Shown: piece by piece, positions 32,452 through 46,574 of the stretch | How positions within the stretch are numbered: the stretch's first letter is position 1 | How the letters are laid out: every line of letters begins with the position of its first letter | Assembly: GCF_011734195.1 (NCBI RefSeq) | Contig: NZ_JAANTH010000001.1 | Span: forward strand, 1 to 64,000 | Length of the DNA stretch: 64,000 nt | Direction of reading: 5' to 3' | DNA from: Halobacterium sp. R2-5 | GTDB taxonomy: Archaea > Halobacteriota > Halobacteria > Halobacteriales > Halobacteriaceae | The notes under the pieces: generated by a model | Told to the model about the DNA's origin: nothing | Seen by the model: only the letters and a program-made list of their open reading frames with translations | The model's database searches: none | Made by a program: the position numbers and the translations under genes

Positions 32452-32691
32452 TCCTCGAAAGCCCCGAGGCTGTAGACTCGGTGCGCTCGCTGTCGCCGAA
32501 AGAGCGCACAGCGCTCTTTCGGGAGCAGGCGAACGCTTTGCGTTCGCCGCCCTCGCGAATCTTCGATTCGCTCAGTGACGAGAGAGCTTAGCTCTCTCGA
32601 ACCACGCGCTTCCCTCGCTACGCTCGGTCCAGTGCTTGCGTCGCACGCCTTCGTCTACAGCCTCGCCCCTTTCAGTCCTCCCCGCTACCGG
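32452..32691 (-). repeat. Structured intergenic repeat, copy 1 (long form)
   Basis: Read on the minus strand: an ACTGAAAGGGGC box (revcomp of 32665-32676), a 12-bp stem arm (32653-32664), the core CGACGCAAGCACTG (revcomp of 32630-32643), several nested perfect hairpins (around 32497-32522, 32529-32547, 32554-32570, 32580-32600), the matching stem arm (32466-32477), and a GGGGCTTTCGAGGA end box (32452-32465). It lies head to head with copy 2. Confidence 0.8.
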
Positions 32692-32706
32692 TTGACCAGC
32701 CGACAG

Positions 32707-32823
32707 TGGGTGGGGCTGAAAGGGGCGGCAGGCTACGGGAAGCACGACGAAGCAAGCACCGCAGGCCGAAGGCCGAGGAGCACAGCGAGTCGCGCGACCG
32801 TAGCCTGCCGGGGCTTTTCGAGG
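32707..32823 (+). repeat. Structured intergenic repeat, copy 2
   Basis: CTGAAAGGGGC box (32716-32726), a 12-bp arm at 32727-32738 exactly complementary to 32798-32809, a core CGACGAAGCAAGCAC (32745-32759), and an end box GGGGCTTTTCGAGG (32810-32823). The stem differs in sequence from copies 1 and 3 yet still pairs perfectly. Confidence 0.8.
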
Positions 32824-33267: not shown

Positions 33268-34209
33268 TTACGTCCCCGCCACGAGGCCGAGGGCGTCCAT
33301 CGTCCAGAAGAGCACGTCGCCGGCGGTGAGCGCGAGCAGCAGACCGACGAACAGCGGGACGATGAACGGCACGCCGGGAGTGACCCAGACGTCTTCGCTG
33401 TCGACGACGACGTCGAGGCCCTCGCGGAGGTCCGCGGGCGTGGTGCCGTACGCGGAGCCCTCGATGTCGTCGAGGAACGCCGCGGCGCCCCACGGGTCGC
33501 CGCTGCCGTCCGTGACCACCGCGCCGTCGGTCGGGTCCGCGGGGTCGTCCGGGAGCGTGGCGGGGTCGCGGAGCCCGGGGTTCTCGCGGAGGTCGTCGAG
33601 CGTGAGGCCGCGCCACCGGAGGTACATCCGGAGCGCGTCCAGGTCGAGGCCGTCGCGGGTGAACCCGGACTCGGTCTCGAGGAGGCTGCCGTGGGTGTCC
33701 GTGAGTTCGAGGACGGGGACGCGGCGACCGACGAACATCACGACCGAGAACTCTCCGCCGAGGGCGTTCCGGACGCCGAGCGCGAGCGGGTACGCCAGCC
33801 CGAGCAGGACGGTGTTCGTGAGAATCGTCAGCGAGAACACGCCGAGGTACGTCTCCACCGCGGGCAGCGAGTACCCGAGCAGCTCGTACGTCGGGTACGT
33901 CGGGTAGACCACCGCGAGCGTCATGAACGCGCGGGCGTCCGCACCGCCGAACCCGCCGACGTACCAGAACGCGTACGCCAGCGGCACGACGAACAGCAGG
34001 CTGAACGCGACGCGAATCGCGAACGGCCGGAACGCGTTCGGCGTGCCGAGCGCCAGCAGCCCCTCCCAGAGGACGAGTACGCCGCCGAGCAGGACGAGCG
34101 GCCCCCAGAGGTCGTTCGGGACGCGGCGCGTCCGCACGTCCCGGAGCGCCGCCCACCCGAGCGCCGGCACGACCAGCAACCGCAGGAGGTCGGGTATCGA
34201 GGCGTCCAC
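33268..34209 (-). CDS. A24-type prepilin/preflagellin peptidase
   Basis: A 313-residue membrane aspartyl protease of the TadA/PibD group that cleaves class III signal peptides of pilins and archaellins. Catalytic aspartates are in LRDVRTRRVPN (residue about 23) and GGFGGADARAF (residue about 89, GxGD-type). A long soluble insertion (about 155-275) separates the early helices from a last TM helix, an unusual length for PibD (about 200-350 in haloarchaea). After insertion of the element at 34356, it no longer lies behind the ferredoxin gene. Confidence 0.82.
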   Translation of the reverse strand: MDASIPDLLRLLVVPALGWAALRDVRTRRVPNDLWGPLVLLGGVLVLWEGLLALGTPNAFRPFAIRVAFSLLFVVPLAYAFWYVGGFGGADARAFMTLAVVYPTYPTYELLGYSLPAVETYLGVFSLTILTNTVLLGLAYPLALGVRNALGGEFSVVMFVGRRVPVLELTDTHGSLLETESGFTRDGLDLDALRMYLRWRGLTLDDLRENPGLRDPATLPDDPADPTDGAVVTDGSGDPWGAAAFLDDIEGSAYGTTPADLREGLDVVVDSEDVWVTPGVPFIVPLFVGLLLALTAGDVLFWTMDALGLVAGT

Positions 34210-34355
34210 TACCCGGTGTCGGGCACGCCGCCGGCTTAGGTGTTGTCCTTGGCGTCAGCACGGCGGCAGGGCTACGCCAGCGGCGAGAGAGATACCGCCG
34301 TCCTCGGTGGACGGCTGCTCGCAAAAAATCGGGGTCGCCAGCGGCCGCGTCCGGT

Positions 34356-34402
34356 TTAGATGACGCGGTTCTCCCTGTTGTTGTGAAGCGAGGGTTTAAC
34401 AC
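34356..34402. other. attL with arm-type site
   Basis: Core TTAGATGACGCGGTTCT at 34356-34372. Just inside, GTTTAACAC (34394-34402) is the reverse complement of GTGTTAAAC, which occurs twice beside attR; these are likely integrase arm-binding sites. The outside flank holds GCAAAAAATC (34320-34330), a T-run on the minus strand that probably was the ferredoxin terminator before insertion. Confidence 0.8.
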
Positions 34403-34434
34403 AAAACGCCGCGTGTGGTGGAGTATCGCTCAAA

Positions 34435-35052
34435 ATGGCTAACCGAACAGAAACAATTGGGGTCCGCGTAACAGAGGCGGAGAAGCAGAAATTTGAGCAG
34501 TATGCCGAAGAGCACAACGAGTTTGATAGTGCCTCGCGGATGCTTCGCGTCCTCGCGCACCGGCACATCAATGGCGAGGGAGACGGCGTGGAGGCTAGTA
34601 TAGAGACGGATGAGTTGGTAGACGCGATGGACGTTGCACTCAGCGGTGTTCACGAGCGGCTCGACCGGATGGAAAATCACGTGGTCGCGATTGACTCCGC
34701 GACAGATACCGATGACGACGTAGACAAGCTGGCAAGAGAGATTTACGCAGCGCTTCCCGTTTACAATGACACTGACGACCTTCCCGGGATGGAAGAGGTA
34801 GCCCGCGCACTCACGAGTGAACAGCAAAGCGACCACAGCCAGACCCAACTCATTTCCTCGCCGTCCGTGTGGGCGAACTACTTCGGGGCGGACGAAGCAC
34901 AAGTGCGGAAGGCGTGTATGCGGATGCTAGACTACTTCCCCGACGTAGAGTACGTCACATCGTCAATGGGTGGCTACGACATTGAGGTAGCCGGCGAACC
35001 TGTGGACATCCGCGTCAGCGAGCGCCGGTACTTCAAGACGGAGGACGACTGA
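34435..35052 (+). CDS. RHH-type protein upstream of integrase
   Basis: A 205-residue protein. The first 45 residues (RTETIGVRVTEAEKQKFEQYAEEHNEFDSAS) fit a ribbon-helix-helix or DUF-type DNA-binding start; the middle is acidic and helical; the end (VWANYFGADEAQVRKACMRML ... DIRVSERRYF) resembles a second small domain. It overlaps the integrase by ATGA, so it may be a recombination-directionality factor or repressor. Its promoter would overlap the arm site at 34394-34402, allowing autoregulation. Confidence 0.72.
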   Translation: MANRTETIGVRVTEAEKQKFEQYAEEHNEFDSASRMLRVLAHRHINGEGDGVEASIETDELVDAMDVALSGVHERLDRMENHVVAIDSATDTDDDVDKLAREIYAALPVYNDTDDLPGMEEVARALTSEQQSDHSQTQLISSPSVWANYFGADEAQVRKACMRMLDYFPDVEYVTSSMGGYDIEVAGEPVDIRVSERRYFKTEDD

Positions 35053-36200
35053 TGGCGCGACGGTATCGTGCCCTAGAGGACTGCCGCACCGAGATACGCG
35101 ACTACGCCGACGACCTAGACGCCGGCACGGATGACGACTCCGACCATAAGCGCGACACGTCATCTACTGGGAGATACGAACAGGACATCAGGTGGTTTGA
35201 CGAGTGGTTAGATAACCCCGTCTCGAAGCCGAATCTCGGCAAGCATACCCCTGGGGATGAGGCTGGAGAGGAAGAGCAGACGCGACCCGCCATCGAGTCT
35301 CCGCTTGACCTCACGATTGCTGATGCGAATCGGCTCGGACGCGCAATTTCCCACGAGTTCAACGGAACTACACCCAGATACCGCTGGGACCGGATTCACG
35401 CGATGTATGAGTACTTCGTCACGATGACGCTCATCGACTCGAATCCAATGGAGAAGTGGGACGGCAAGAAGGAGGAGAAGTGGGGGATGACGAAGGGTAC
35501 GGCCCAGTCCGACAAGCTCGGTGAGGACGAATCCTACGCTGTTTCCCAGGACGACGTACGCCTGATGGAGGAAAACGTCGGCCGGCATCGGGTTCGTGAC
35601 CAGTGCATCATCCGGATGATGTGGCAAACAGGAATTCGTCGAGGCGAGCAATCGGGGCTGCTCACCACGGACATTGACCGAGACGGTCGCGTCATCCACA
35701 TCCGGGCGGAGAACGCTAAAAATGGGGAGGAGCGGTACGTAGGCTACCAGAAGTCGCTCGATGGACTCCTCGATTTATGGCTTGATGGTGGACACCGAGA
35801 CGAGATGCTAGGTATCGTTGACGACGAGGCTGCTCCACACGATTACGTGTTCGTTGGCGAGCGTGGTGCGCAGCTATCAGGGTCGCGAATTAACGACATT
35901 GTCATCGAAGCTGCCGACCGCGCGGGCATTAACCGGAAGATGTACGGAGACGCCAACGCCCCGATTGACCCCGAGACTAAGAAGCCGAAGCCGAATCGGT
36001 GGAAGATTACGGCACACAACGTGCGTCACGGCTACGGTTCGTATATGATAAACGAGGCACCAGGGGCAGATGGTCAAGCACGGCTTTGGGAGGTCTCCCA
36101 ACAAATGGGCCACTCCTCTGTTCAAATCACAGAGGACATCTACGTTGAGAACGACCCGAAGGCAGGCCTAGATTACGCCCTCGAAGCCGGTCCTGAATAG
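35052..36200 (+). CDS. int: Tyrosine recombinase (integrase)
   Basis: A 382-residue phage-type integrase. Catalytic residues visible: R196 in TGIRRGEQ, H322-x-x-R325 in HNVRHGYG, H354 in MGHSSVQIT and nucleophile Y364 in EDIYVEND. An N-terminal SAM-like core-binding domain covers about 85-150. It should cut within the 17-bp att core. It lies next to attL and overlaps the preceding gene by 4 bases. The element ends are clear, so it may still be active. Confidence 0.93.
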   Translation: MARRYRALEDCRTEIRDYADDLDAGTDDDSDHKRDTSSTGRYEQDIRWFDEWLDNPVSKPNLGKHTPGDEAGEEEQTRPAIESPLDLTIADANRLGRAISHEFNGTTPRYRWDRIHAMYEYFVTMTLIDSNPMEKWDGKKEEKWGMTKGTAQSDKLGEDESYAVSQDDVRLMEENVGRHRVRDQCIIRMMWQTGIRRGEQSGLLTTDIDRDGRVIHIRAENAKNGEERYVGYQKSLDGLLDLWLDGGHRDEMLGIVDDEAAPHDYVFVGERGAQLSGSRINDIVIEAADRAGINRKMYGDANAPIDPETKKPKPNRWKITAHNVRHGYGSYMINEAPGADGQARLWEVSQQMGHSSVQITEDIYVENDPKAGLDYALEAGPE

Positions 36201-36327
36201 GGTCAACACAGGGGGCGATTGCTCCAGTTGTGATACCCCCTGCGGCGGCCATCTATGTCGAGATTTTGAAGATGTCGAGTCAGACAGAATACATTTACTT
36301 GGTGATATAGCGCCTTCGTTAGCGTGA
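36201..36327. other. Integrase 3' region with hairpin
   Basis: CAGGGGG (36209-36215) pairs with CCCCCTG (36236-36242), a 7-bp stem with a 20-nt loop right after the integrase stop. It may end integrase transcription. The remainder is an AT-rich promoter-like stretch (ACATTTACTTGG) before the next gene. Confidence 0.4.
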
Positions 36328-36738
36328 ATGATAGGGTGGATTCTCAGCGGTGTGACCGAGGCAGCAGTCATCGCAGGATGGGCGGTCGCGGGGGCAATCG
36401 GTGTTGCGTTTTTGGGGTATATGACGCCCAAAATCGTGCTTTACGGTGGCATTGCCGCTACGCTAGTATACGTGATGTCGCCATTCGTTCCGGGTGCTGA
36501 CCAAGCGCTTGTAAACACCCATTTTCTGCCGGCCATCGAACGGATTCTCGTCGGCTATCCCTGGATGATGATGCAAGCGTTCGTCGATTCTACAACGTAC
36601 GCGCATTTGTGGCAGAACATTGTCGGAGGCCTCACTGTTGCCGTACTGAGCATCGTCTATTTGCCCGGATACCTGTACGGCCTGTATTACGGGTCGGTCA
36701 CGTATCCTGAATTGATTCTGTTCGCAGCCATCATCTGA
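36328..36738 (+). CDS. Element-encoded membrane protein, 136 aa
   Basis: A 136-residue protein with about four hydrophobic helices (residues 5-22, 27-50, 90-118, 122-136) and no charged domain. No homolog recognised. It stands alone between the integrase and a convergent regulator gene. Possible roles include exclusion or a small transporter, but nothing in the sequence decides. Confidence 0.6.
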   Translation: MIGWILSGVTEAAVIAGWAVAGAIGVAFLGYMTPKIVLYGGIAATLVYVMSPFVPGADQALVNTHFLPAIERILVGYPWMMMQAFVDSTTYAHLWQNIVGGLTVAVLSIVYLPGYLYGLYYGSVTYPELILFAAII

Positions 36739-36923
36739 GCGGCGGATAACCAAATTTGAGCGACTGAAGGTAGGGTAAATCCAGTAACGAGAAGCTGCAA
36801 TGCTGACTTGACCACCAGATATGACCACGCCGGTAGTTAGTTCTCCCTATGGGTGCGGGAAAACGGTCATAGCACATGCTCGCGGGCTGTAATCCTGTTA
36901 CTGCCTTGCCTTGGTGAATCGCT

Positions 36924-37226
36924 TCATCGCCGTCCATACTGATTTGAGTCGTCCAACATCCCATTCTCGTCCATGAATTGGAGAACTTCCTTGCCGTGGT
37001 CGCTCACAGCGTACAACCGCCCACGTTTCGTGTCCTCATCTACAACTAACTCAACGAGGTCTCGCTCGCGAAGTGCGTTCAGCGCCTCCGAAATACGCGA
37101 GTATTCTTGGCCGGTATCCTCACGAATTTGTGAGGGGATAGCCGCTCCTTCTGCGAGTCGTTGAAGCACCATTGTCCGGTTCGGCGAGCGCACGACGAAC
37201 GATGCGCTCTCCTCGACTTGGCCCAT
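36924..37226 (-). CDS. Winged-helix regulator, divergent from methyltransferase
   Basis: A 100-residue winged helix: SPNRTMVLQRLAEGAAIPSQIREDTGQEYSRISEALNALRERDLV is a clear HTH with wing KRGRLYAVSDHGKEVL. Similar small haloarchaeal regulators repress neighbouring genes. It is transcribed away from the methyltransferase gene and shares its 102-base promoter region, so it may act like a restriction-modification control protein. A GGTGG ribosome-binding-like stretch lies just before the ATG. Confidence 0.8.
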   Translation of the reverse strand: MGQVEESASFVVRSPNRTMVLQRLAEGAAIPSQIREDTGQEYSRISEALNALRERDLVELVVDEDTKRGRLYAVSDHGKEVLQFMDENGMLDDSNQYGRR

Positions 37227-37282
37227 TCTACCACCGGCTTACCAACGGCACTGCATGTCGTTACCTACATTCTACCTCAAAC

Positions 37283-37293
37283 TACTTACACCC
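37283..37293 (+). promoter_or_regulatory. Promoter motif shared with restriction locus
   Basis: TACTTACACCC lies about 36-46 bases before the methyltransferase ATG, compatible with a TATA/BRE element and a short leader carrying GGAGCAGAGAG. The identical 11-mer is at 40916-40926 and its ACTTACA part is inverted at 40864-40870. Confidence 0.4.
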
Positions 37294-37328
37294 CCGTTTC
37301 GTAGCGTGGGAGCAGAGAGATTAAGCCA

Positions 37329-38309
37329 ATGAGTACGAACAACCGTGCAATGGGTTACGACCTCTATCAGGGGAACTCCTTTCAGGTCCTAGAGGAGGAG
37401 TTTGAGGAGAACTCAATTCACGCAGTGGTTACCGACCCTCCGTATGGCGTCGTTGAATTCCAAACTGCGAACGTGGAAAAGATGCGAGAGGGGTCGGGCG
37501 GTGTCTGGAGAATCCCGCCAGAACTCGACGGCAATAAACGGAAGCCTCTGCCTCGTTTCACCACCCTCTCCGAAAGCGACAAAGAGGACCTCCGAAACTT
37601 CTTCCGCCAGTTCGGGGAGTCGGTTGAACGCGTGCTTCGTCCTGGAGGGCACGTGTTCGTTGCGTGCACTCAGTTGCTGATGCACGAGGTTTCCCAACAA
37701 CTGGATGAAGCCGGTCTTGAGCGACGGGATGTTCTTGTTCGCGAAACGAAGACGCTCCGGGGAGGCGACCGGCCTAAGGGCGCACACGAACGATACGACA
37801 TGGTATCATCGATGCCGCGCGTGTACTGGGAGCCGTGGCTGCTGTATCGGAAACCACTGGAAGGGCGTTTACAGGACAACCTAGATAATTGGCAGACAGG
37901 GGGCCTCCGCCGAGAGTCGGACGAACGGCCGTTCACCGACTTGCTCGGGAACGGGAAGACTCCGAAGGAGGAGACTCAAATCGTCAAGAACTCCCACCCC
38001 GGCGGCGAAGAGGAGGCAGAAGCTCATCCGAACCTGAAGCCTCAGAAGTTGATGCGTGAACTCTGCCACGCCGCACTCCCACTTCGCGAAGGGACCATCC
38101 TCGACCCCTTCATGGGCTCCGGTTCGACCATCGCGGCTGCCCACGCCCTCGGCTACGATGCGGTAGGCATCGAACTCGACGAGACATTCTTTGAGATGGC
38201 GCAGAATGCCATCCCAAAACTTGCAGAAGTCCCGACAGAAATCGAGAAGCGAGACGATGTGGAGGAACATCGCACACAGTCGCGGTCTCTCAGCGACTTC
38301 GGAAAATAA
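37329..38309 (+). CDS. DNA methyltransferase (N4-cytosine/N6-adenine, beta-type)
   Basis: A 326-residue DNA methyltransferase of the N6_N4 family. Catalytic motif IV DPPYG at residues 36-40 precedes the SAM-binding motif I DPFMGSGS at about 259-266, the beta-class order. DAVGIELDE follows. The middle (about 90-230) should hold target recognition (RETKTLRGGDRPKGAHERYD). A second start at the methionine in position 8 is possible. It lies near two nuclease-like paralogs (39378-40840) and likely protects host DNA from them. Confidence 0.9.
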   Translation: MSTNNRAMGYDLYQGNSFQVLEEEFEENSIHAVVTDPPYGVVEFQTANVEKMREGSGGVWRIPPELDGNKRKPLPRFTTLSESDKEDLRNFFRQFGESVERVLRPGGHVFVACTQLLMHEVSQQLDEAGLERRDVLVRETKTLRGGDRPKGAHERYDMVSSMPRVYWEPWLLYRKPLEGRLQDNLDNWQTGGLRRESDERPFTDLLGNGKTPKEETQIVKNSHPGGEEEAEAHPNLKPQKLMRELCHAALPLREGTILDPFMGSGSTIAAAHALGYDAVGIELDETFFEMAQNAIPKLAEVPTEIEKRDDVEEHRTQSRSLSDFGK

Positions 38310-38418
38310 TAGCCTGGTTAGGTATCTGGAATTCCCCTTTCGAAGGAGAGGAAGGGCAGGTGGCGATATGTTTATTGGCCCGTCCTAATGAGTCCAAACA
38401 ACGAGTTGAGACACTGGA

Positions 38419-38694
38419 ATGGGCATCCGACAATGGACAGCTGACGCCATTGAGGAGGGTGGGAGTGGAAGGTGGTTTCTTGGACTATTAACGAAGGGGG
38501 TCGCAGAACTCAGTGCTGCGCTCGTTCTGAGTTGGCTTCTTGTGCAGGTAGTGATGTGGCTATTTCCGATTAGTGCTGTTCGCGATTTGCTTGGTCCAAA
38601 TACTCATAACGGGCTTTGGTTGTTCTTCTTCATAGGTATCGCAAAAATCTTCACCGTATGCACTTTCACGGCACCAGTCAATGGCTCAGAATAA
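38419..38694 (+). CDS. Element-encoded membrane protein, 91 aa
   Basis: A 91-residue protein with two hydrophobic helices (about 32-52 and 65-85). It converges with the membrane protein gene at 38678-39268 and their 3' ends overlap by 17 bases. No recognised family. Confidence 0.5.
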   Translation: MGIRQWTADAIEEGGSGRWFLGLLTKGVAELSAALVLSWLLVQVVMWLFPISAVRDLLGPNTHNGLWLFFFIGIAKIFTVCTFTAPVNGSE

Positions 38695-39268
38695 ATGACC
38701 GTGCGTCCCTTGCCGCGTTTTGAGGGATAGATGTATTTGTTCGATAGATAGGCGCGACGAGATAGAGAACTGCCATTGCGAGGATTGCTCCCGTTGAAGC
38801 GATGTTCCAACCAAAGCGGTCTCCAACCCAGATGTCAATAGACGGGTAAAAAATGGCCGTGCCAACCCCGATTAGGCCCACACTCGTCCAACTTACGAGA
38901 AGGGAGGCGATGGTCCCAGTGACGAGAACCAGGACACTGAGCGCCGAAACAAGAACGAGCAAGTAGCTCATAAAGTAGAGGAGCATCTCACGACGGGTAG
39001 CGCTCTCAATGCTCTCCATCAAGGAAACGAGGAGTTCAGTATCATCTTCGTCTAAATCGAGGTTGAGGAAAGGGAGGAAAACACCGACAATGGCGAGCCA
39101 GCCAAAGCTGACTGCAAGGTCACCGAGCCGGGGAAGGACGATAAGAGCGGGGGAGCTCGCAACAGCGACAAGGGAACCGATGACAAGGCTACTGGCGATA
39201 AAGCGCCCCAGTAGCGTTTTTGCCCACTCGGCAACACTACCCAGTGGTTCCTGGTTCACCGTGCTCAT
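38678..39268 (-). CDS. Element-encoded polytopic membrane protein, 196 aa
   Basis: A 196-residue membrane protein with about five helices (residues 25-45, 52-72, 95-120, 122-142, 160-180) and an acidic loop DLDEDDTELLVSLMESIE. Such proteins sit within the restriction-modification segment but have no recognised motif. A structural or immunity role cannot be told from the sequence. Confidence 0.6.
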   Translation of the reverse strand: MSTVNQEPLGSVAEWAKTLLGRFIASSLVIGSLVAVASSPALIVLPRLGDLAVSFGWLAIVGVFLPFLNLDLDEDDTELLVSLMESIESATRREMLLYFMSYLLVLVSALSVLVLVTGTIASLLVSWTSVGLIGVGTAIFYPSIDIWVGDRFGWNIASTGAILAMAVLYLVAPIYRTNTSIPQNAARDARSFILSH

Positions 39269-39377
39269 TGGATAGTTGGTGGTTCCGTCTCCGAATAGTT
39301 AATTCGTTGGGTGGCCGACTTTCCGCCTACAAATTGATTAGCAGACCATAGCTACTGTAAAGCAACCTGAGGCCCCA

Positions 39378-40100
39378 TCAGATTGCCATCTCAGGCTCTT
39401 CCGAGACGTACTCAGGGTTAGACTCCGCGAACACCGGGTCAAAAGAGGCCTGTATCCGTCGATACCGCTCAACATGTTCGTTCTGGCAGATGGATTCCGG
39501 GTTCTGGTACAAGGGGTTTGAACGGAGAGCATCCTTCAAGTCGTCCGCCGCCCGCCACGTAGTGTTCGACCCTTGTCCTCGGTCCTCAAACTCCCAGTTG
39601 TACTTCCCGCCATCAGCCACCAGAATTTGCGTGAACTCAAACGGTTCCTCATCCTCCGGTATCTCGCCCTGTGCGTTCACGCGATACTGAAGGAACAGGA
39701 TATTCGTGGGGGACTCGTTATGGCTAGTGAAGAAGCTCCGGTAGTGCGCTGCCTTCTGTTCAATGCCGTCTACGATGGATTTGTCCCGGTTCTCCGCAGC
39801 TGCCCGGAATCCACTGTGGATGATGTCAGGGCGACGGTCGTCATGCGGATTGTGTTCGAGTGTTTCCATCTGCTCGATAAGTGCGTTGTTGAATTGGTGG
39901 CCGACGTAATCCCCCACGGCGTTCATCGCACGGAACTCGTCATAGAACCGCGTGCCGAACTCCTCAATATGGAACTCATTTACCTGATGGTAGCGGTCGT
40001 AGACCGCCTTAATCGCTTGCCGAATGTGGTCTATCTCCAGCCCCAGCGGAAGCCACGCATTCTCGTTTAGGTACCGCTCGCGGAACTGCGGCTTCTCCAT
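39378..40100 (-). CDS. PD-(D/E)XK-like protein, putative restriction subunit B
   Basis: A 240-residue protein paralogous to its upstream neighbour. Likely nuclease residues: RRPDII (D92), then GIEQK with E114 and K116. The shared C-terminal signature SNPLYQNPE ... ASFDPVFAESNPEYV matches the partner's SNPIYEDPD ... ASFDPTYAEKNPELV. ATG at 40100 overlaps the partner's TGA, so both are made together. Paired unequal subunits recall heterodimeric enzymes such as BbvCI and Bpu10I. The frame's TTG one codon earlier is not needed. Confidence 0.65.
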   Translation of the reverse strand: MEKPQFRERYLNENAWLPLGLEIDHIRQAIKAVYDRYHQVNEFHIEEFGTRFYDEFRAMNAVGDYVGHQFNNALIEQMETLEHNPHDDRRPDIIHSGFRAAAENRDKSIVDGIEQKAAHYRSFFTSHNESPTNILFLQYRVNAQGEIPEDEEPFEFTQILVADGGKYNWEFEDRGQGSNTTWRAADDLKDALRSNPLYQNPESICQNEHVERYRRIQASFDPVFAESNPEYVSEEPEMAI

Positions 40101-40840
40101 CAATCATCACCCAACGTCTTCTGCTCGGTCACAAGCTCCGGGTTCTTCTCGGCGTACGTCGGGTCAAAGCTTGCGTGCCGCTGTTTGTATTCGACAAGTT
40201 CCTCACCCCGGCCAGTGATGGCATCCGGGTCCTCGTAGATGGGGTTGCTTCGGAGTTTGTACATCCCCGACGCGATGATAGACGAGGTTATCGTCCGCCG
40301 GGAGTCTTCGCTCCGGCCTGAGTGCGACCAGTCGTCCTCGTTGAGGCTGGCGGCGAGAACCTGCACAAGACGAATTGGCTCCATATCATCTAGGTCAGCT
40401 TCGGGGTCACCGCGCGTGTACCGGAACACGACAAACCACGCTTCCTCATTGTTGTGGGCCTGCCACCCACCGCTTGACTTGCTACACTTCGTTTCAATGC
40501 CCTCATCGCCGTGGTGGATTTCGAAATCCTGCGCGGCGTACTCCTCATTGTCAACTGGCAGGATGTCTGGGAAGCCATCCTGCTTCTGGTTCGCGATGAG
40601 TGCATCGCTGGCCTGCGCGAGTTCCTCAGTTGCGACGTTCCCAATGAAGTCTGAGAGTGCGTTGTTCGCGCGCAGAACGGTCTCAATGCGCCCGTGGTCC
40701 TCTCGCATCAGGAACCGATTCAGGTCGTCATAGAAATCGTAGAATTCCTTGATTGCTGTTCGGACCTCCTCGGGCTGTACTCCGTAGGGGAGGTTCGCGT
40801 TCGGATTGAACCAATCCTCGTTAAATCCAGGTGTCTGCAC
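40100..40840 (-). CDS. PD-(D/E)XK-like protein, putative restriction subunit A
   Basis: A 246-residue protein with a helical N-terminus (EEVRTAIKEFYDFYDDLNRF), then DGFPDILP (P91, D92) and GIETKCSKSSGG (E116, K118), spaced as in PD-(D/E)XK restriction enzymes. The following strand AWFVVFRYTRG fits the nuclease core. It is the first gene of a two-gene operon and lies about 1.8 kb from a DNA methyltransferase in the same island. Specific cutting site unknown; the enzymatic role is inferred from motifs. Confidence 0.68.
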   Translation of the reverse strand: MQTPGFNEDWFNPNANLPYGVQPEEVRTAIKEFYDFYDDLNRFLMREDHGRIETVLRANNALSDFIGNVATEELAQASDALIANQKQDGFPDILPVDNEEYAAQDFEIHHGDEGIETKCSKSSGGWQAHNNEEAWFVVFRYTRGDPEADLDDMEPIRLVQVLAASLNEDDWSHSGRSEDSRRTITSSIIASGMYKLRSNPIYEDPDAITGRGEELVEYKQRHASFDPTYAEKNPELVTEQKTLGDD

Positions 40841-40863
40841 AGGTCAGTACGAAAGACCATTGA

Positions 40864-40926
40864 TGTAAGTGCAGTAATACAGGATAGATTCATTTTAACT
40901 CGGAATAATACGATTTACTTACACCC
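40864..40926. promoter_or_regulatory. Divergent promoter with inverted TGTAAGT/ACTTACA
   Basis: TGTAAGT (40864-40870) serves as a TATA-like box about 25 bases before the minus-strand gene starting at 40840. Its inverse ACTTACA (40917-40923) would serve the plus-strand genes. TACTTACACCC here is identical to the methyltransferase promoter motif at 37283-37293. Confidence 0.4.
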
Positions 40927-40946
40927 GGCGACTGTTCTTGACAGTC

Positions 40947-41003
40947 ATGACTAGGGATTTGGCAGAACACTCATATGTTAATTCCTCTATATGGCATATA
41001 TGA
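40947..41003 (+). CDS. Possible 18-aa leader peptide
   Basis: An ATG about 21 bases after the TTACTTACACC box opens an 18-codon ORF (MTRDLAEHSYVNSSIWHI) whose TGA overlaps the ATG at 41000 (ATGA). It could be a translated leader coupling expression of the 443-aa gene. Codon use alone cannot prove translation. Confidence 0.3.
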   Translation: MTRDLAEHSYVNSSIWHI

Positions 41004-42331
41004 CGAATCTAGAGCCTTGGCGGATTTTCGACGACGAGCAGGAGGTGACATCCAAGTCTTGGTATCTGCCTAAAGACACCATCAAATCCCTGCGGTCCTA
41101 CGTCATCGGACGATACGGTACTACACAGCACATCGGGACAGTCTGCACTCGGGCGATGACCAGTTGGATGGCGGACGACCCCGACGACCCGGCGCACCGA
41201 ACGTGGGAGCGCTTGAAGACCGACTACGACTGGGAGGACGCCGACGAAAACGTATCCGCGTGGAACTACCGCCAGTACGTCGACTACACGACCCTGTCGA
41301 AGAATGAAAAGCGCGCTCTGGGGTTCAGTGCGCCAAAAACAGTGATAGAGGAATTCACAGACGACCTGAACAAGAACGAGTATGGAGTGACACTAGCGAA
41401 TGCTGTCGAGGCTGAAATTCGCAAGCACACACAAATCCGCCGGATGCACGACATCATCGACGCGGGCGATGTCGACCGTAGCTACGACGAAACCGATGCC
41501 CGCGTGGATAAAGTCGAGGTGACTGAAGATGGCGACCTCGCAGACTGGTCCACCATCACGATGACCGATTCAGACATAGAAATCTCGCAAACGGAAATCA
41601 TCCAGTTCGTGAGCGAGACCGAGGAGGTGGACTGGGAGACTCGACGCGGGCTCCTCGCTGCACTTGTCCGAACGCACGGGGAAATCACGAGAGAAAGCCT
41701 ATACCGCAATGACGAGGCCCTGTTTGGCATCGAGAAGACCCGGCGAAAGAGGAAGGACAAGGATGCCATCATTGAACACGCTGAAACGGCTGCTGGGCCA
41801 TTAGCCATCGCTCCCGCTAAAATCGTAGCGGACGAAATGGGCGAACACAACCTGCCTCAAGCTTCCGGGCTGACGAATCGGAACCAGCCGCTGAATTTCG
41901 AGGATGATGAGCTAGATGACCTCAAATTGTTACTGTACCACCAAGGGAAGCACAGTCAGGCAGAGATGTGGGCGAGGATGGTAGCGAAGGTCACTAGCAT
42001 TGGCCACGACCTCGCGTCAGTGGACTGGACGCACAGCGATTCGGTGACGGCCATCTATCGTGGAAAGCACCTGTTGGACGCCATCAACCGATACCTGCCC
42101 CTCGTGACAATCACAGCGGATACAGTCGAGGACGCGGACGTGGAGTCCGAACATCACGTGTCTAAACTAAACCGTATCCGTACAGTACTGGAAACCACTC
42201 GAGACGACATCAGTAGCCCTGGCGGCCAAGACATAGAGGATGCATATGAACGGGCCGTGGAGCAAGGAAAGACGCCGCAATCAATCGAATTTCGACGCGG
42301 TGAGGAGACTCCTTCGACGCTCGAGTTCTGA
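41000..42331 (+). CDS. Element protein with two RHH-like segments, 443 aa
   Basis: A 443-residue hydrophilic protein. Two N-terminal stretches look like ribbon-helix-helix units: YLPKDTIKSLRSYVIGRYG and GFSAPKTVIEEFTDDLNKN. A central WETRRGLLAALVRTHGEITRESLY could be a winged helix, followed by a basic run (KTRRKRKDKD). The C-terminal half is helical. No replication initiator motif is recognised, but it sits beside a G/T-rich repeat tract typical of origin or partition regions. The ATG at 41000 (MTNLEPW) is preferred to 40991 because it couples to the leader ORF. Confidence 0.7.
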   Translation: MTNLEPWRIFDDEQEVTSKSWYLPKDTIKSLRSYVIGRYGTTQHIGTVCTRAMTSWMADDPDDPAHRTWERLKTDYDWEDADENVSAWNYRQYVDYTTLSKNEKRALGFSAPKTVIEEFTDDLNKNEYGVTLANAVEAEIRKHTQIRRMHDIIDAGDVDRSYDETDARVDKVEVTEDGDLADWSTITMTDSDIEISQTEIIQFVSETEEVDWETRRGLLAALVRTHGEITRESLYRNDEALFGIEKTRRKRKDKDAIIEHAETAAGPLAIAPAKIVADEMGEHNLPQASGLTNRNQPLNFEDDELDDLKLLLYHQGKHSQAEMWARMVAKVTSIGHDLASVDWTHSDSVTAIYRGKHLLDAINRYLPLVTITADTVEDADVESEHHVSKLNRIRTVLETTRDDISSPGGQDIEDAYERAVEQGKTPQSIEFRRGEETPSTLEF

Positions 42332-42696
42332 TTCTCTAAAGGGGGTGGGGTGGGTTGCTTGCAGCCCGGCTATGGTACAGGCAGGGAGTTCTGGTGTGAA
42401 TCTAAGACGATGAAATCGGGAAGAGGAGCCAAAATTAGCGATTGGGGTGGAATTAGAGGGGGTGTTGTGGGGGCGGTGTGGTTATTAGTAGTAGTAGTAG
42501 TAGTAACAATAGTTGTATAGTTGTTGTTGTGTTATGTAGTGTAGTGAGGAGGCTGTAGCCGGTGTCTAAGAGCAGCCAACACAGCTACAACAACACAATA
42601 CCGCCGAAATTAGCCACTTCAGTACTCCTTAGCATCCGAGTAGAGGATGTCGAGAACAATTCTCGGCCGGGAAGCAACCCATCCCACCCTTGATGG
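42332..42696. other. G/T-rich non-coding tract with (TAG)6
   Basis: 365 bases without a credible gene. The plus strand is strongly biased to G and T: GGGGGTGGGGTGGG near 42345-42358, TAG repeated six times (42486-42503), then GTTGTTGTTGTG and TGTAGTGTAG. Strand asymmetry and low helix stability make this the best candidate for an element replication origin or partition site. Confidence 0.5.
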
Positions 42697-42897
42697 TCAC
42701 TCCTCGCCGTCGCCATCCTTGTCGGCGGCGTTCTGCCGAGCCTGTACTTCATCGAGATAGTAACGGTCGTCGATGCGAATAAGCCATCCTCGGTCACACA
42801 GAGCGTTCGCGACTGGGACAGGGACATCGTCGGCGTGAACAAATCCTTGTTCTTTGATGGCGGTCAATACGTCGTTCCAGCGGTCATTGGATACCAT
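42697..42897 (-). CDS. Small winged-helix-like protein, 66 aa
   Basis: A 66-residue protein: WNDVLTAIKEQGFVHADDVPVPVANALCDRGWLIRIDDRYYLD reads as a compact winged helix with an acidic tail. It follows the 136-aa regulator gene by 21 bases on the same strand and is probably co-transcribed. Confidence 0.5.
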   Translation of the reverse strand: MVSNDRWNDVLTAIKEQGFVHADDVPVPVANALCDRGWLIRIDDRYYLDEVQARQNAADKDGDGEE

Positions 42898-42918
42898 ATC
42901 AGGTAGACTAGGGTTGAT

Positions 42919-43329
42919 TCAAGCGTCCGAATCAAGGAGCATTTCAACCAGCTTCTGCTGGCGGTGCACGATGTTAGCATTCGCTTCTTCAAGCTCCGTG
43001 ACACGCGCGTACAAGTCGTTGAGCGCGGTTCGCATCGCCCAAATGGGGTCGTGATTCTCAAGTTCGACGCTGGTCTCTATGCCGATTTCCTTGCCTGCTT
43101 CAGTCAGGGAGAGAACCTTGGGATTGGGGCGTTTGTCACCGACCCGGTGTGCACGGCCGACGACCTCAACGTACTCCGGAGAGAGCGTTCGGAGGGCGTT
43201 GTTGATAGTCTTATTCGAAAATCCAGTGGCACGTGAAAGGTGGTCGATGCGGACGCCTGCCTTCTCGTCATCTTGGGCAGCGCTCAGTCGCTCGATGCCC
43301 GCGAGGATTCGCCGGTGTTTGTCGTACAT
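42919..43329 (-). CDS. Winged-helix regulator with C-terminal coiled coil
   Basis: A 136-residue protein. Residues about 20-75 form a winged helix (IDHLSRATGFSNKTINNALRTLSPEYVEVVG), followed by KPNPKVLSLTEAGKEIG as wing. The end (ALNDLYARVTELEEANANIVHRQQKLVEML) is a coiled coil for dimerisation. ATG at 43329 is used, as the upstream start would be TTG. Confidence 0.75.
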   Translation of the reverse strand: MYDKHRRILAGIERLSAAQDDEKAGVRIDHLSRATGFSNKTINNALRTLSPEYVEVVGRAHRVGDKRPNPKVLSLTEAGKEIGIETSVELENHDPIWAMRTALNDLYARVTELEEANANIVHRQQKLVEMLLDSDA

Positions 43330-43338
43330 ATTTGTCAA

Positions 43339-43564
43339 TAGTCATATTCTTAGTGCAAAGGTGCGGTGGTGGTAAGATGTGGACGATACGTGTACCAACG
43401 TCTCCACTCAGAGACGGCTGTACATACCTAAATAGACACTGACGACCCCTTCCAGACGCCCTTCCCGTGAAAAGACGATGACTATGGAGGAAACCCACCA
43501 GTAGGTGATGATACAGGTTCTTTACTGAAATTTGAGAATAAAACTGCCGCTCAGTACAGCGAAG
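43339..43564. other. Intergenic, no gene seen
   Basis: About 225 bases between the winged-helix gene and the zinc-ribbon gene, AT-richer than core genome. It must contain the minus-strand promoter for the 42919-43329 gene. No repeats or hairpins strong enough to call. Confidence 0.4.
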
Positions 43565-43765
43565 CTACGTATCGTTCTGGTAGTAGACGAGGAACCGATT
43601 CTCGCAGTCCGTACAGATTGCCCATACTGTCCCGTCACCGGCTTCGTCACCATCGACAATCGTTGTTCCCTTCGGGACGGTTGCGAATGTATTATCGTTG
43701 CATGACGGACACGCGACCCGCTTTGCTGTTGGTTCGTCGTCCCGCCTCTCGCTTTTGTCCTTCAT
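43565..43765 (-). CDS. Small zinc-ribbon protein, 66 aa
   Basis: A 66-residue protein with two cysteine pairs, CPSC (residues about 19-22) and CTDC (about 51-54), the pattern of a zinc ribbon. Start overlaps the stop of the winged-helix gene upstream (4 bases), so both are produced together; it may be a DNA- or polymerase-binding co-factor. Confidence 0.72.
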   Translation of the reverse strand: MKDKSERRDDEPTAKRVACPSCNDNTFATVPKGTTIVDGDEAGDGTVWAICTDCENRFLVYYQNDT

Positions 43766-44109
43766 TTGGACGGGGTTACGGCGGGCAACCCCTGGTCGCC
43801 CTCGAACAATTCCTGCGGACAGTCCGCCAGCTTCACCGCCCGCTGTGCCGCGTCGTACTCGACGAGGTCTGCCTCCGCCAGCATCGGGAGGTGGACGTGA
43901 TGCAGCGCCACCTGCACGCGCTTGATTCCCTCGGCAGAGTCAGCCTGTGACGAGTCAGCCTCCCAGTCAACGATGTCCTCCGCCAGGTCGGCCAGTGCCA
44001 GCGGCGTCTCCGTCTCGTTCAATCGGTGCAGTACGTACCGGCGCCGTGACCGAGCGAGGCACCTGGCGACCGTCGTACTGACTTCCGTGTTCTCCAGAGT
44101 GTTGGACAT
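43762..44109 (-). CDS. Winged-helix regulator (DUF7344-like)
   Basis: A 115-residue protein related in layout to the 585-896 gene: ARSRRRYVLHRLNETETPLALADLAEDIV, then RVQVALHHVHLPMLAEADLVEYD. The YVLHRL and LHHVHLP signatures are typical of this haloarchaeal regulator group. Start at MSNTLENT (44109). It precedes and overlaps the zinc-ribbon gene. Confidence 0.8.
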   Translation of the reverse strand: MSNTLENTEVSTTVARCLARSRRRYVLHRLNETETPLALADLAEDIVDWEADSSQADSAEGIKRVQVALHHVHLPMLAEADLVEYDAAQRAVKLADCPQELFEGDQGLPAVTPSK

Positions 44110-44175
44110 ATCATAGTGGAGGAGCCATATTCGGAAACACCACGAGGTTGTCTTCACCACTCGTTGATAAGGGCG

Positions 44176-44838
44176 CTACTCGTCGTCTGGATGGCTGACG
44201 GTCAGGGCGCTCGTGATGAGGCCCTTGTGTCCGTGATGTAACCGCTTCGAGAGGGCTTGCTGGGAGATGTCTAGTTCTCCCGCCAGGTCGGCCATCGTCG
44301 TCTCTTGAGGAACATCGTAGTAGCCGTGTTCGAGCGCCGTGACCAGCGTCTCGCGTTGCTTGGGCGTCAGGCCGTACTGGGCGCTCGCCATCGGTTGCTC
44401 CTGTTGGTATATCCGGTTGAGGTCGAACGAGATGTCGTTTTCAGCGCAGTACTCTTGGAACTGCGAGGCCTTTTCGTGGTCGTCGAAGCGCATCTGGAGT
44501 TCCCACTGCTCGTCCCGCCCGGTCGCTTCGAGGATGGTCGCGCCGATGTCGGTGTAGGCGTAGACGATTGACTCGACGTTCTGCGTCCACTCGGCGCGGT
44601 AGAGAATGCCATCTTCGACCTCGTCGACGAGCGTGGTGTTGGTGACCGATTCGTCGGCTTCGAACGCGGCCTCGAAGTCCGATTGGTCGCCGCCGCTGAC
44701 CCAGAAGTACGGCATGATGCGGTCGCCCATCGTGGCGACGACGCGTTCGATTTCGACGACCATCTCCGGGGCGGCGGTCAGCGAATGATGCAACCCGAAG
44801 TCGTCGGCGGGAACCGTGAATTCAGCGATAACACTCAT
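44176..44838 (-). CDS. HTH-10 (Bat-type) transcription regulator
   Basis: A 220-residue regulator. The N-terminal part is the common alpha/beta sensory domain of this family (FTVPADDFGLHHSL start). The C-terminal HTH-10 reads LTPKQRETLVTALEHGYYDVPQETTMADLAGELDISQQALSKRLHHG. Such proteins activate nearby or distant haloarchaeal genes. It is the last gene before attR and is transcribed inward. Confidence 0.9.
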   Translation of the reverse strand: MSVIAEFTVPADDFGLHHSLTAAPEMVVEIERVVATMGDRIMPYFWVSGGDQSDFEAAFEADESVTNTTLVDEVEDGILYRAEWTQNVESIVYAYTDIGATILEATGRDEQWELQMRFDDHEKASQFQEYCAENDISFDLNRIYQQEQPMASAQYGLTPKQRETLVTALEHGYYDVPQETTMADLAGELDISQQALSKRLHHGHKGLITSALTVSHPDDE

Positions 44839-45149
44839 GTGGTTCGTTGTGTCTCCGCTGAGATAAGCCCGGGGCTGAATGAGAAGAAATTAGTCGTCGC
44901 CGGGCGGTTAGGTAGGCTCGCGCACCCACTTACCGATTCAGGAGTCAATTTTCATGTGTCCTTCTGAATAAAGAGATAGTGCTATCAACTCTAGCCTCGA
45001 TAGGTACGGGCCATTAGTTCTACAAACGAGTTGAGATAAGGGACGATATTCGCCCATTTGCGGAAGCTGAACGTATTGAGCATCCGGTTTTGCGCCTACA
45101 ACAGCGGTGAAAAATGGCGCCGTGTTAAACGTGTGTTAAACGTTGTTGG
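44839..45149. other. Right-end non-coding region of the element
   Basis: 311 bases with one copy of a dispersed repeat (44919-44995), the integrase arm-type sites and a T-run (minus strand, complement of AAAAA at 45110-45114) that now can end ferredoxin transcription. No gene. Confidence 0.55.
44919..44995 (+). repeat. Dispersed repeat family 2, copy in element
   Basis: The first 22 bases (including CACTTACCGATTCA) match 55437-55458 with one mismatch, and TTCTGAATAAAGAG plus the following GCTATCAACT continue the similarity to 55480-55510. The middle has diverged. Confidence 0.65.
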
Positions 45150-45166
45150 TTAGATGACGCGGTTCT
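45122..45166. other. attR with arm-type sites
   Basis: Core at 45150-45166, lying inside the ferredoxin stop-codon end. GTGTTAAAC occurs at 45122-45130 and 45133-45141, in direct orientation, and inverted near attL. GTTGTTG occurs at the inner edge of both ends. Together they look like a bipartite tyrosine-recombinase attachment site. Confidence 0.75.
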
Positions 45167-45539
45167 GGAGGTAGTCGAGGTGCTTGGCGTTGTAGACGAT
45201 CTTGACCTCGTCGGCCGCCGGGGAGCCGATGCAGGTCAGGCGGACGTTCTTCTCTTCGACTTCCTCGTCGGAGAGAATCTGCTGCATGTCCATGTCGATG
45301 TCGCCTTTCTTCACGATGGACGCGCAGTTCGCACACGCACCGGCGCGGCACGAGAACGGCCAGTCGTAGCCCTGCGCCTCGGCGGCTTCGAGGATGTACT
45401 CGCCTTCGGCTACCTCGAGGGTGCCGTAGTCCTCGTCGTCGAGACCGGCGTCGGCCGCCTTCTCGAAGAGGTCGTCGTCGTCCATGTCCCAGCCCTGGTC
45501 GTCCAGCGTCTCGTAATTGAGGTATTCAACCGTCGGCAT
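45150..45539 (-). CDS. fdx: 2Fe-2S plant-type halophilic ferredoxin
   Basis: A 129-residue ferredoxin, the main soluble electron carrier for 2-oxoacid oxidoreductases in haloarchaea. Cluster ligands C64, C69, C72 (CRAGACANC) and C103 (LTCIGS). The acidic N-terminal insertion ([16 protein letters not shown]) is the known halophilic surface domain. The last codons (NRVI, stop) are supplied by the attR core, so integration leaves the protein intact. Start ATG at 45539. Confidence 0.96.
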
Positions 45540-45684
45540 CGTCCGAGTGATTCGCGGTCCGCAGTCATAGTAGTTATTGTTCGGTTCGCGCGCTGGGAAC
45601 GGACGTGGCGAGCGTCTCGGACGCGATTTTCGCTGATTCGCCAGCGACGGGATGCTTTTAGGGGTCCCGGCCTGACACAACGGC

Positions 45685-46446: not shown

Positions 46447-46574
46447 CCCGGTAGCGGGTGGGACTGAAAGGGGCCGACCGCTGGCGGTCACTCGCGACGC
46501 AAGCACTGCAGCGAACGAAGTGAGCGAAGCGCGCAGCGAGCGAGCGGCCGCCAGCGGGAGGGGGCTTTCGAGGA
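46447..46574 (+). repeat. Structured intergenic repeat, copy 3
   Basis: A small hairpin CCCGGTAGCGGG (46447-46458), GGACTGAAAGGGGC (46461-46474), stem arm 46478-46487 exactly complementary to 46548-46557, the core CGACGCAAGCACTG (46495-46508), and the end box GGGGCTTTCGAGGA (46561-46574). Located between hisA and hisB in their sense orientation. Confidence 0.8.

Follow-up and report, generated by a model that had tools for sequence, protein, structure and literature searches.

A palindromic intergenic element of haloarchaea with conserved end boxes and a covarying stem, probably a REP-like DNA repeat

We describe a family of palindromic elements, three copies of which lie in the window (the whole stretch of 64,000 nt analysed here, from Halobacterium sp. 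R2-5, the source genome). Each element consists of a hairpin of variable stem sequence held between conserved end boxes. At sites shared between species the hairpin is replaced, loops are found inverted, and head-to-head pairs of the element are co-located with rearrangement junctions. We regard it with moderate confidence as a REP-like extragenic palindromic DNA repeat of haloarchaea, which would work at the DNA level, recombine via single-stranded DNA or a cruciform, and have its boxes read by a putative host factor. The element is apparently unnamed and undescribed: no earlier description was found in the limited collection of papers that was searched, and the box sequences were absent from the haloarchaeal papers in that collection.

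Element Plan and Copies in the Source Genome

As shown in Table 1, the window contains one head-to-head pair (copies 1 and 2) and a single copy (copy 3). The preliminary description, made from the sequence of the window, had recognised the head-to-head arrangement, and 40 bp separate the CTGAAAGGGGC cores of the two copies. The end boxes and core that it took to be shared are real, but they are not the same in both copies: in copy 2 the start is GGGCTGAAAGGGGC, with G in place of A, the 3' box carries an additional T (GGGGCTTTTCGAGG) and the inner core reads CGAAGCAAGCAC. Copy 1 is indeed expanded, its loop holding four additional perfect hairpins.

Table 1. Coordinates in the window of the three copies of the element and their parts.
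Feature	Position	Strand	Remark
Copy 1, left half of head-to-head pair	32453..32678	minus	covariance-model match
Copy 1 5' box GGACTGAAAGGGGC	32678-32665	minus	
Copy 1 stem arms GAGGCTGTAGAC/GTCTACAGCCTC	32653-32665 and 32465-32477	minus	
Copy 1 3' box GGGGCTTTCGAGG	32465-32453	minus	
Head-to-head linker, 40 bp, TCCTCCCCGCTACCGGTTGACCAGCCGACAGTGGGTGGGG	32676..32715		between copies 1 and 2
Copy 2, right half of head-to-head pair	32714..32823	plus	covariance-model match, 97.1 bits
Copy 2 GAAAG	32718-32722	plus	
Copy 2 bubble GGG	32723-32725	plus	
Copy 2 stem arms	32726-32738 and 32798-32810	plus	
Copy 2 bubble GGG	32811-32813	plus	
Copy 2 CTTTTC	32814-32819	plus	
Copy 2 GAGG	32820-32823	plus	
Copy 3, single	46460..46573	plus	covariance-model match; between hisA and hisB
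Copy 3 upstream G-tracts GGGTGGGA	46456..46463	plus	GGG-n-GG(G)-A part of conserved 5' block
Copy 3 GAAAG	46466-46470	plus	
Copy 3 bubble GGG	46471-46473	plus	
Copy 3 stem arms	46474-46487 and 46548-46561	plus	
Copy 3 bubble GGG	46562-46564	plus	
Copy 3 CTTTC	46565-46569	plus	

On its G-rich strand the element reads GGG-n(1-2)-GG(G)-A-CT-GAAAG-GGG-C[stem]-loop-[stem]G-GGG-CTTTC, followed by GAGG or TGG, and the conserved 5' block of the family is GGGnGGACTGAAAGGGG. GAAAG and CTTTC pair as an outer helix, which the preliminary description had missed. It had correctly noted that the flanking G-runs do not pair with each other, and GGG opposite GGG forms a G-rich internal loop, here called the bubble. 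GG-n-GG stands immediately 5' of the box in 202 of 226 copies; the upstream G-tracts and the two bubble runs make four G-tracts per element, the second of which is often just GG. The stem varies in sequence and is mostly at least 12 bp long. That of copy 3 has a tandem G.A/A.G mismatch, which is retained in orthologues.

A covariance-model search found 29 copies in the source genome, all on the two largest contigs. Because of these copies, and because CTGAAAGGGGC occurs 18 times in this 2.98-Mb genome compared with 2 times for a reversed control, the copies are not a product of chance, and copies 1 to 3 belong to one family as had been proposed. One copy (L008, G000:C1 601806-601914) lacks its 3' half and continues into an apparent partial duplicate of the adjoining tRNA-Ser (cga) gene.

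Stem Covariation

Stems that differ in sequence and still pair, a claim made from the window's own copies, proved to be a property of the family. Among 14 source-genome copies 97.6% of cells pair, compared with 74.1% in shuffled and 33-44% in slid controls. In the same copies both partners have changed in 11 of 18 pairs, and the alignment scores 0.558 for covariation, compared with 0.139 when shuffled and at most 0.073 when slid. Selection without regard to pairing gave 185 exact 5' boxes that had GGGCTTTC no more than 320 nt away, and in 148 of these 11 or all 12 of the 12 stem positions were Watson-Crick paired (27 further 5' boxes had no 3' box). Among 182 distinct stems (31 clusters at four or more differences), three or four Watson-Crick types occur at most positions; pairing was required for selection of this set, which inflates its pairing values. 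The same filter applies to the wobble statistics, with G·U making up 2.6% and A·C 1.0% of stem pairs and a G·U to A·C ratio on the element strand of 56:22, or 38:21 when position 11 is left out.

Nearest-neighbour cores differ by 71 double changes and 39 one-sided changes. The double changes comprise 42 transversions, for which a G·U intermediate is impossible, and 29 transitions. Such a pattern would be expected if one arm were copied from the other or if whole hairpins were exchanged. Compensatory change, which the preliminary description took as strong evidence of selected structure, is strong in itself, but selection on an RNA structure cannot be read from it directly.

Distribution and Gene Context

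The covariance-model search of haloarchaeal genomes that the preliminary description had proposed was positive for 98 of 116 genomes, spread over 40 of the 46 genera in a class-wide sample, in which the counts per genome are lower bounds (at least ~32 at the top). Within a genus sample, 12 of 13 genomes had 5-53 matches. The sole congener with no match, G007, has a 2.4-Mb assembly that is 99% complete, and offers a natural null for the function of the element. In the phylum sample no match was found outside the haloarchaeal class, and all 20 matching genomes belonged to the order of the source genome. Those bacterial matches to the 14-mer that were inspected had neither stem nor 3' box. Viral carriage was considered and rejected: none of 69 viral-contig matches to the 14-mer had a downstream GGGGCTTTC box, and the viral contigs searched held no intact element.

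None of 163 copies examined lies inside a called gene. Single copies are found in sense (50) or antisense (22) orientation between tandem genes, between divergent genes (27) and between convergent genes (14), orthologous sites being counted more than once in these numbers. Sense orientation is preferred between tandem genes (50/72), with several copies shortly after a stop codon. The upstream profile of the copies has no AT-rich promoter-like signal, and no Rfam family reached its gathering score, the only matches being weak, miRNA-like and far below gathering. A transcription terminator is not favoured, given the copies in antisense orientation and those between divergent genes.

Hairpin Replacement at Persisting Sites

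We used the 110-bp flanks of 22 source-genome sites as anchors in five congeners, where the matches were mostly 80-95% identical, and found the element retained at most of these sites. The boxes at orthologous sites are 94-98% identical (somewhat inflated, as box detection tolerated one mismatch), compared with 63-71% for the adjacent intergenic flanks and 65% for the 5' stem arms. Of the 21 pairs scored, 11 have a 5' arm of no more than 67% identity alongside boxes that keep 94-98%. Site-specific box variants are inherited, such as GGCGGATTGAAAGGGCGAGG...CCGAGGGCTTTC at L160 in six of six genomes; L161 behaves likewise with small changes. The hairpin between the boxes is often replaced wholesale, and at L153 at least three clearly different stems occur among five genomes. 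Near-identical cores (at least 85%) were found at unrelated flanks in 34 core pairs.

Stubs are left at L149 in G010 and at L161 in G002, with five further stubs in the linker survey, and empty sites occur at L139 in G002 and G009, at L146 in G002 and at L155 in G009. The element ends are imperfect inverted repeats, and no clean insertion boundary or target duplication was discernible at the compared sites. The preliminary description had set simple mobile-element dispersal against its own reading; the sites are instead old and orthologous, with conserved end boxes.

At the hisA-hisB site of G002 the loop is present in inverted form. In 3 copies, compared with 168 canonical ones, the GGGG of the 5' bubble is changed to CCCC, a perfect complement, so that the bubble is paired and the 5' box is the copied complement of the 3' box. 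That this conversion occurs in just 3 of 171 copies suggests that the GGG/GGG bubble is itself under selection. Triloops are strand-biased (458 CGNAG, 65 CTNCG), and C-GNA-G triloops are very stable DNA mini-hairpins. A second loop type, GGTCGTCTCG..CTATC..GATATG..GAGCGACCGCGAG, stands in place of the common GACGCAAGCACCGCAGG loop at L009, L011, L014, L060, L131 and others, in several genera and at some orthologous sites.

Head-to-Head Pairs and Rearrangement Junctions

The linker between the inner boxes of head-to-head pairs measures 40-42 bp in 39 of 55 pairs. We had suspected that the linker also covaries, an idea that was dropped because most symmetric positions beyond the boxes pair just 16-59%. 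The source genome has nine head-to-head pairs, and all nine are broken in at least one synteny comparison. With 40 further anchors and three comparisons, breaks were found in 20 of 27 cases for pair-holding intervals, 7 of 39 for intervals with single copies only and 18 of 77 for element-free intervals; the comparisons share ancestry, so these ratios are not independent events, and interval lengths differ, the pair intervals not being the longest.

At least four pair-to-pair flank swaps were found (L138-L145, L138-L140, L144-L151 and L156-L159). In all five relatives the left flanks of L144 and L151, which are separated by 83 kb in the source genome, face each other at a distance of ~1 kb. The same holds for the left flanks of L138 and L145 in G002 and G009, and the flanks of L138/L140 and of L156/L159 are exchanged in G005 and G011. 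G005 shows disruption at both L142 and L143 and an inverted segment lying between the two, a swap that is less resolved. Misassembly at palindromes could produce false junctions, and the junction restricted to the source genome could be an assembly error; two flank swaps that are each common to two species count against this.

The hisI-hisB distance is 13.8 kb in the source genome compared with ~3 kb in G002, G005, G010 and G011. Within 33268-45600, near the head-to-head pair, the window carries an insertion of ~10.5 kb with a tyrosine integrase (35052-36200, PF00589).

Proposed Mechanism and Alternative Explanations

When the G-rich strand is single-stranded, as at replication forks, or is extruded as a cruciform, the GAAAG/CTTTC base and the stem would pair and leave the fixed GGG/GGG bubble. 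The conserved end boxes, bubble and neighbouring G-tracts are probably what a DNA-binding or repair protein of the host recognises, while pairing would be the sole requirement on the hairpin above. We infer that single-stranded DNA or the cruciform is the active form, in which the hairpin would most likely be broken and then repaired from another copy. One arm would be corrected from the other, loops would flip, and a whole hairpin would be exchanged, up to the end boxes, for that of another copy. Recombination of one head-to-head pair with another would turn segments of the chromosome round.

Breakage and repair as the putative cause of the exchanges would explain the perfect arms, the flipped loops, the box-limited hairpin replacement, the stubs and the inversions at pairs. 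Because it would leave the conservation of boxes and bubble at old sites unexplained, a host protein that reads the end boxes is the simplest addition to the model; neither a protein partner nor a sign of cleavage was found. The same traces would be expected from ordinary gene conversion if some host function were under selection.

The preliminary description offered two identities, a mobile ssDNA-type element, which comes near our best reading, and an undescribed structured RNA, which is not favoured. As an RNA family, the copies would be transcribed, and the hairpin with its G-rich internal loop would bind a protein or act in the 3' UTR of the upstream gene. This explanation is kept alive by the strong stem covariation, by the excess of G·U over A·C on the element strand, which holds even without position 11, and by the sense preference of single copies between tandem genes. 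We consider it unlikely, however, because the low G·U with its excess of transversion-type double changes, the inverted loops and paired bubbles, and the presence of copies in all gene orientations favour the DNA level; the upstream profile and the Rfam search also speak against it. Rather improbable is a non-autonomous transposable element (a MITE, or a REP moved by a Y1/RAYT transposase), of which the copies would be remnants of past transposition. Dispersed palindromes with tagged ends and head-to-head dimers are indeed features of REPs (PMC3733652), near-identical cores occur at unrelated sites, and some sites are empty in a relative. Yet most sites are common to species and not new insertions, exchange ends at the boxes while the site persists, and intact elements were absent from the viral contigs searched. 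A link to Y1/RAYT transposases was dropped: Y1_Tnp is absent from the source genome and from the high-copy genomes G004, G017, G020, G034, G083 and G095, and is present in several genomes that have no copies.

The near-constant linker, the position of all nine pairs in rearrangement intervals, the flank swaps between pairs and the conserved boxes at orthologous sites would also suit a site that serves the host chromosome, for instance as organiser, domain boundary or specific recombination site; a dimer would bind it at the linker, and a dedicated recombinase would make the inversions. This seems very unlikely to us: no such recombinase was found, 18 of 116 genomes, one congener among them, have no match, single copies outnumber pairs, and repeat-mediated homologous recombination could account for the junctions.

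Should the reading as a REP-like DNA repeat hold, the majority of haloarchaea would have copies, frequently tens of them, of a repeat that keeps structure over sequence and marks places of chromosome inversion, which would give a handle on genome rearrangement in polyploid halophiles. It would also be a natural case of strong stem covariation largely at the DNA level, a warning for covariation-based RNA discovery, and would offer many naturally occurring copies on which to test G-quadruplex/hairpin hybrids in high potassium.

Comparison with Known Elements

Integron attC sites have an outer paired box, an unpaired spacer, inner arms and a variable loop, and keep structure over sequence. The haloarchaeal element has a similar box/spacer/arm/loop plan. 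Unlike attC sites, its copies are dispersed as singles and pairs, for example between his genes, and no cassette array or integrase association was seen. In quadruplex-duplex hybrids a G-tract quadruplex is joined to a duplex hairpin. The sequence of the element resembles these in its four G-tracts (the second being often the short one) and in the hairpin between tracts 3 and 4. Haloferax volcanii contains ~2.5 M potassium, in which G-quadruplexes are very stable (PMC12678505), and G4 formation has been reported in this species (PMC12873603). With these tracts and this background, the element might fold in molar K+ as such a hybrid (GGG, GG(G), GGGG and GGGG, with the hairpin as third loop) and its head-to-head form might be a programmed recombination site, a combination that we hold to be rather doubtful.

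Like REPs and BIMEs, the element is a short multi-copy extragenic palindrome with a conserved end tag, alternative complementary stems, G-T pairs and head-to-head dimers (PMC3733652). It differs from them in being tagged at both ends and in having the GGG/GGG bubble, hairpins of ~70-300 nt and swappable loops; it has no GTAG/CGTC-type tag and no tie to Y1 transposases. Haloquadratum walsbyi has transposase-free palindromic or inverted-repeat elements, PATE and SMR-A (~110 bp) (PMC3119063). PATEs have near-terminal palindromes related to IS605 ends (PMC3119063), which would set them apart from our element. SMR copies are commonly >95% identical (PMC3119063), whereas stems differ among most copies of our element, a comparison made by description. 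SMR-A inserts into palindromes (PMC3119063), and the secondary hairpins in the haloarchaeal element appear to do likewise.

A separate palindromic insert of ~60 nt, CTGAGCGAACG..CGTTCGCGAGGGTCGGAAGACGAACGCAGTGAGTCTTCCGGGA, lies inside the 5' box at L141 and L244 (G002), and also occurs at L196 (the hisA-hisB site of G002). It has an apparent GGACTGA duplication, and the orthologous L141 site in G002 is without the insert.
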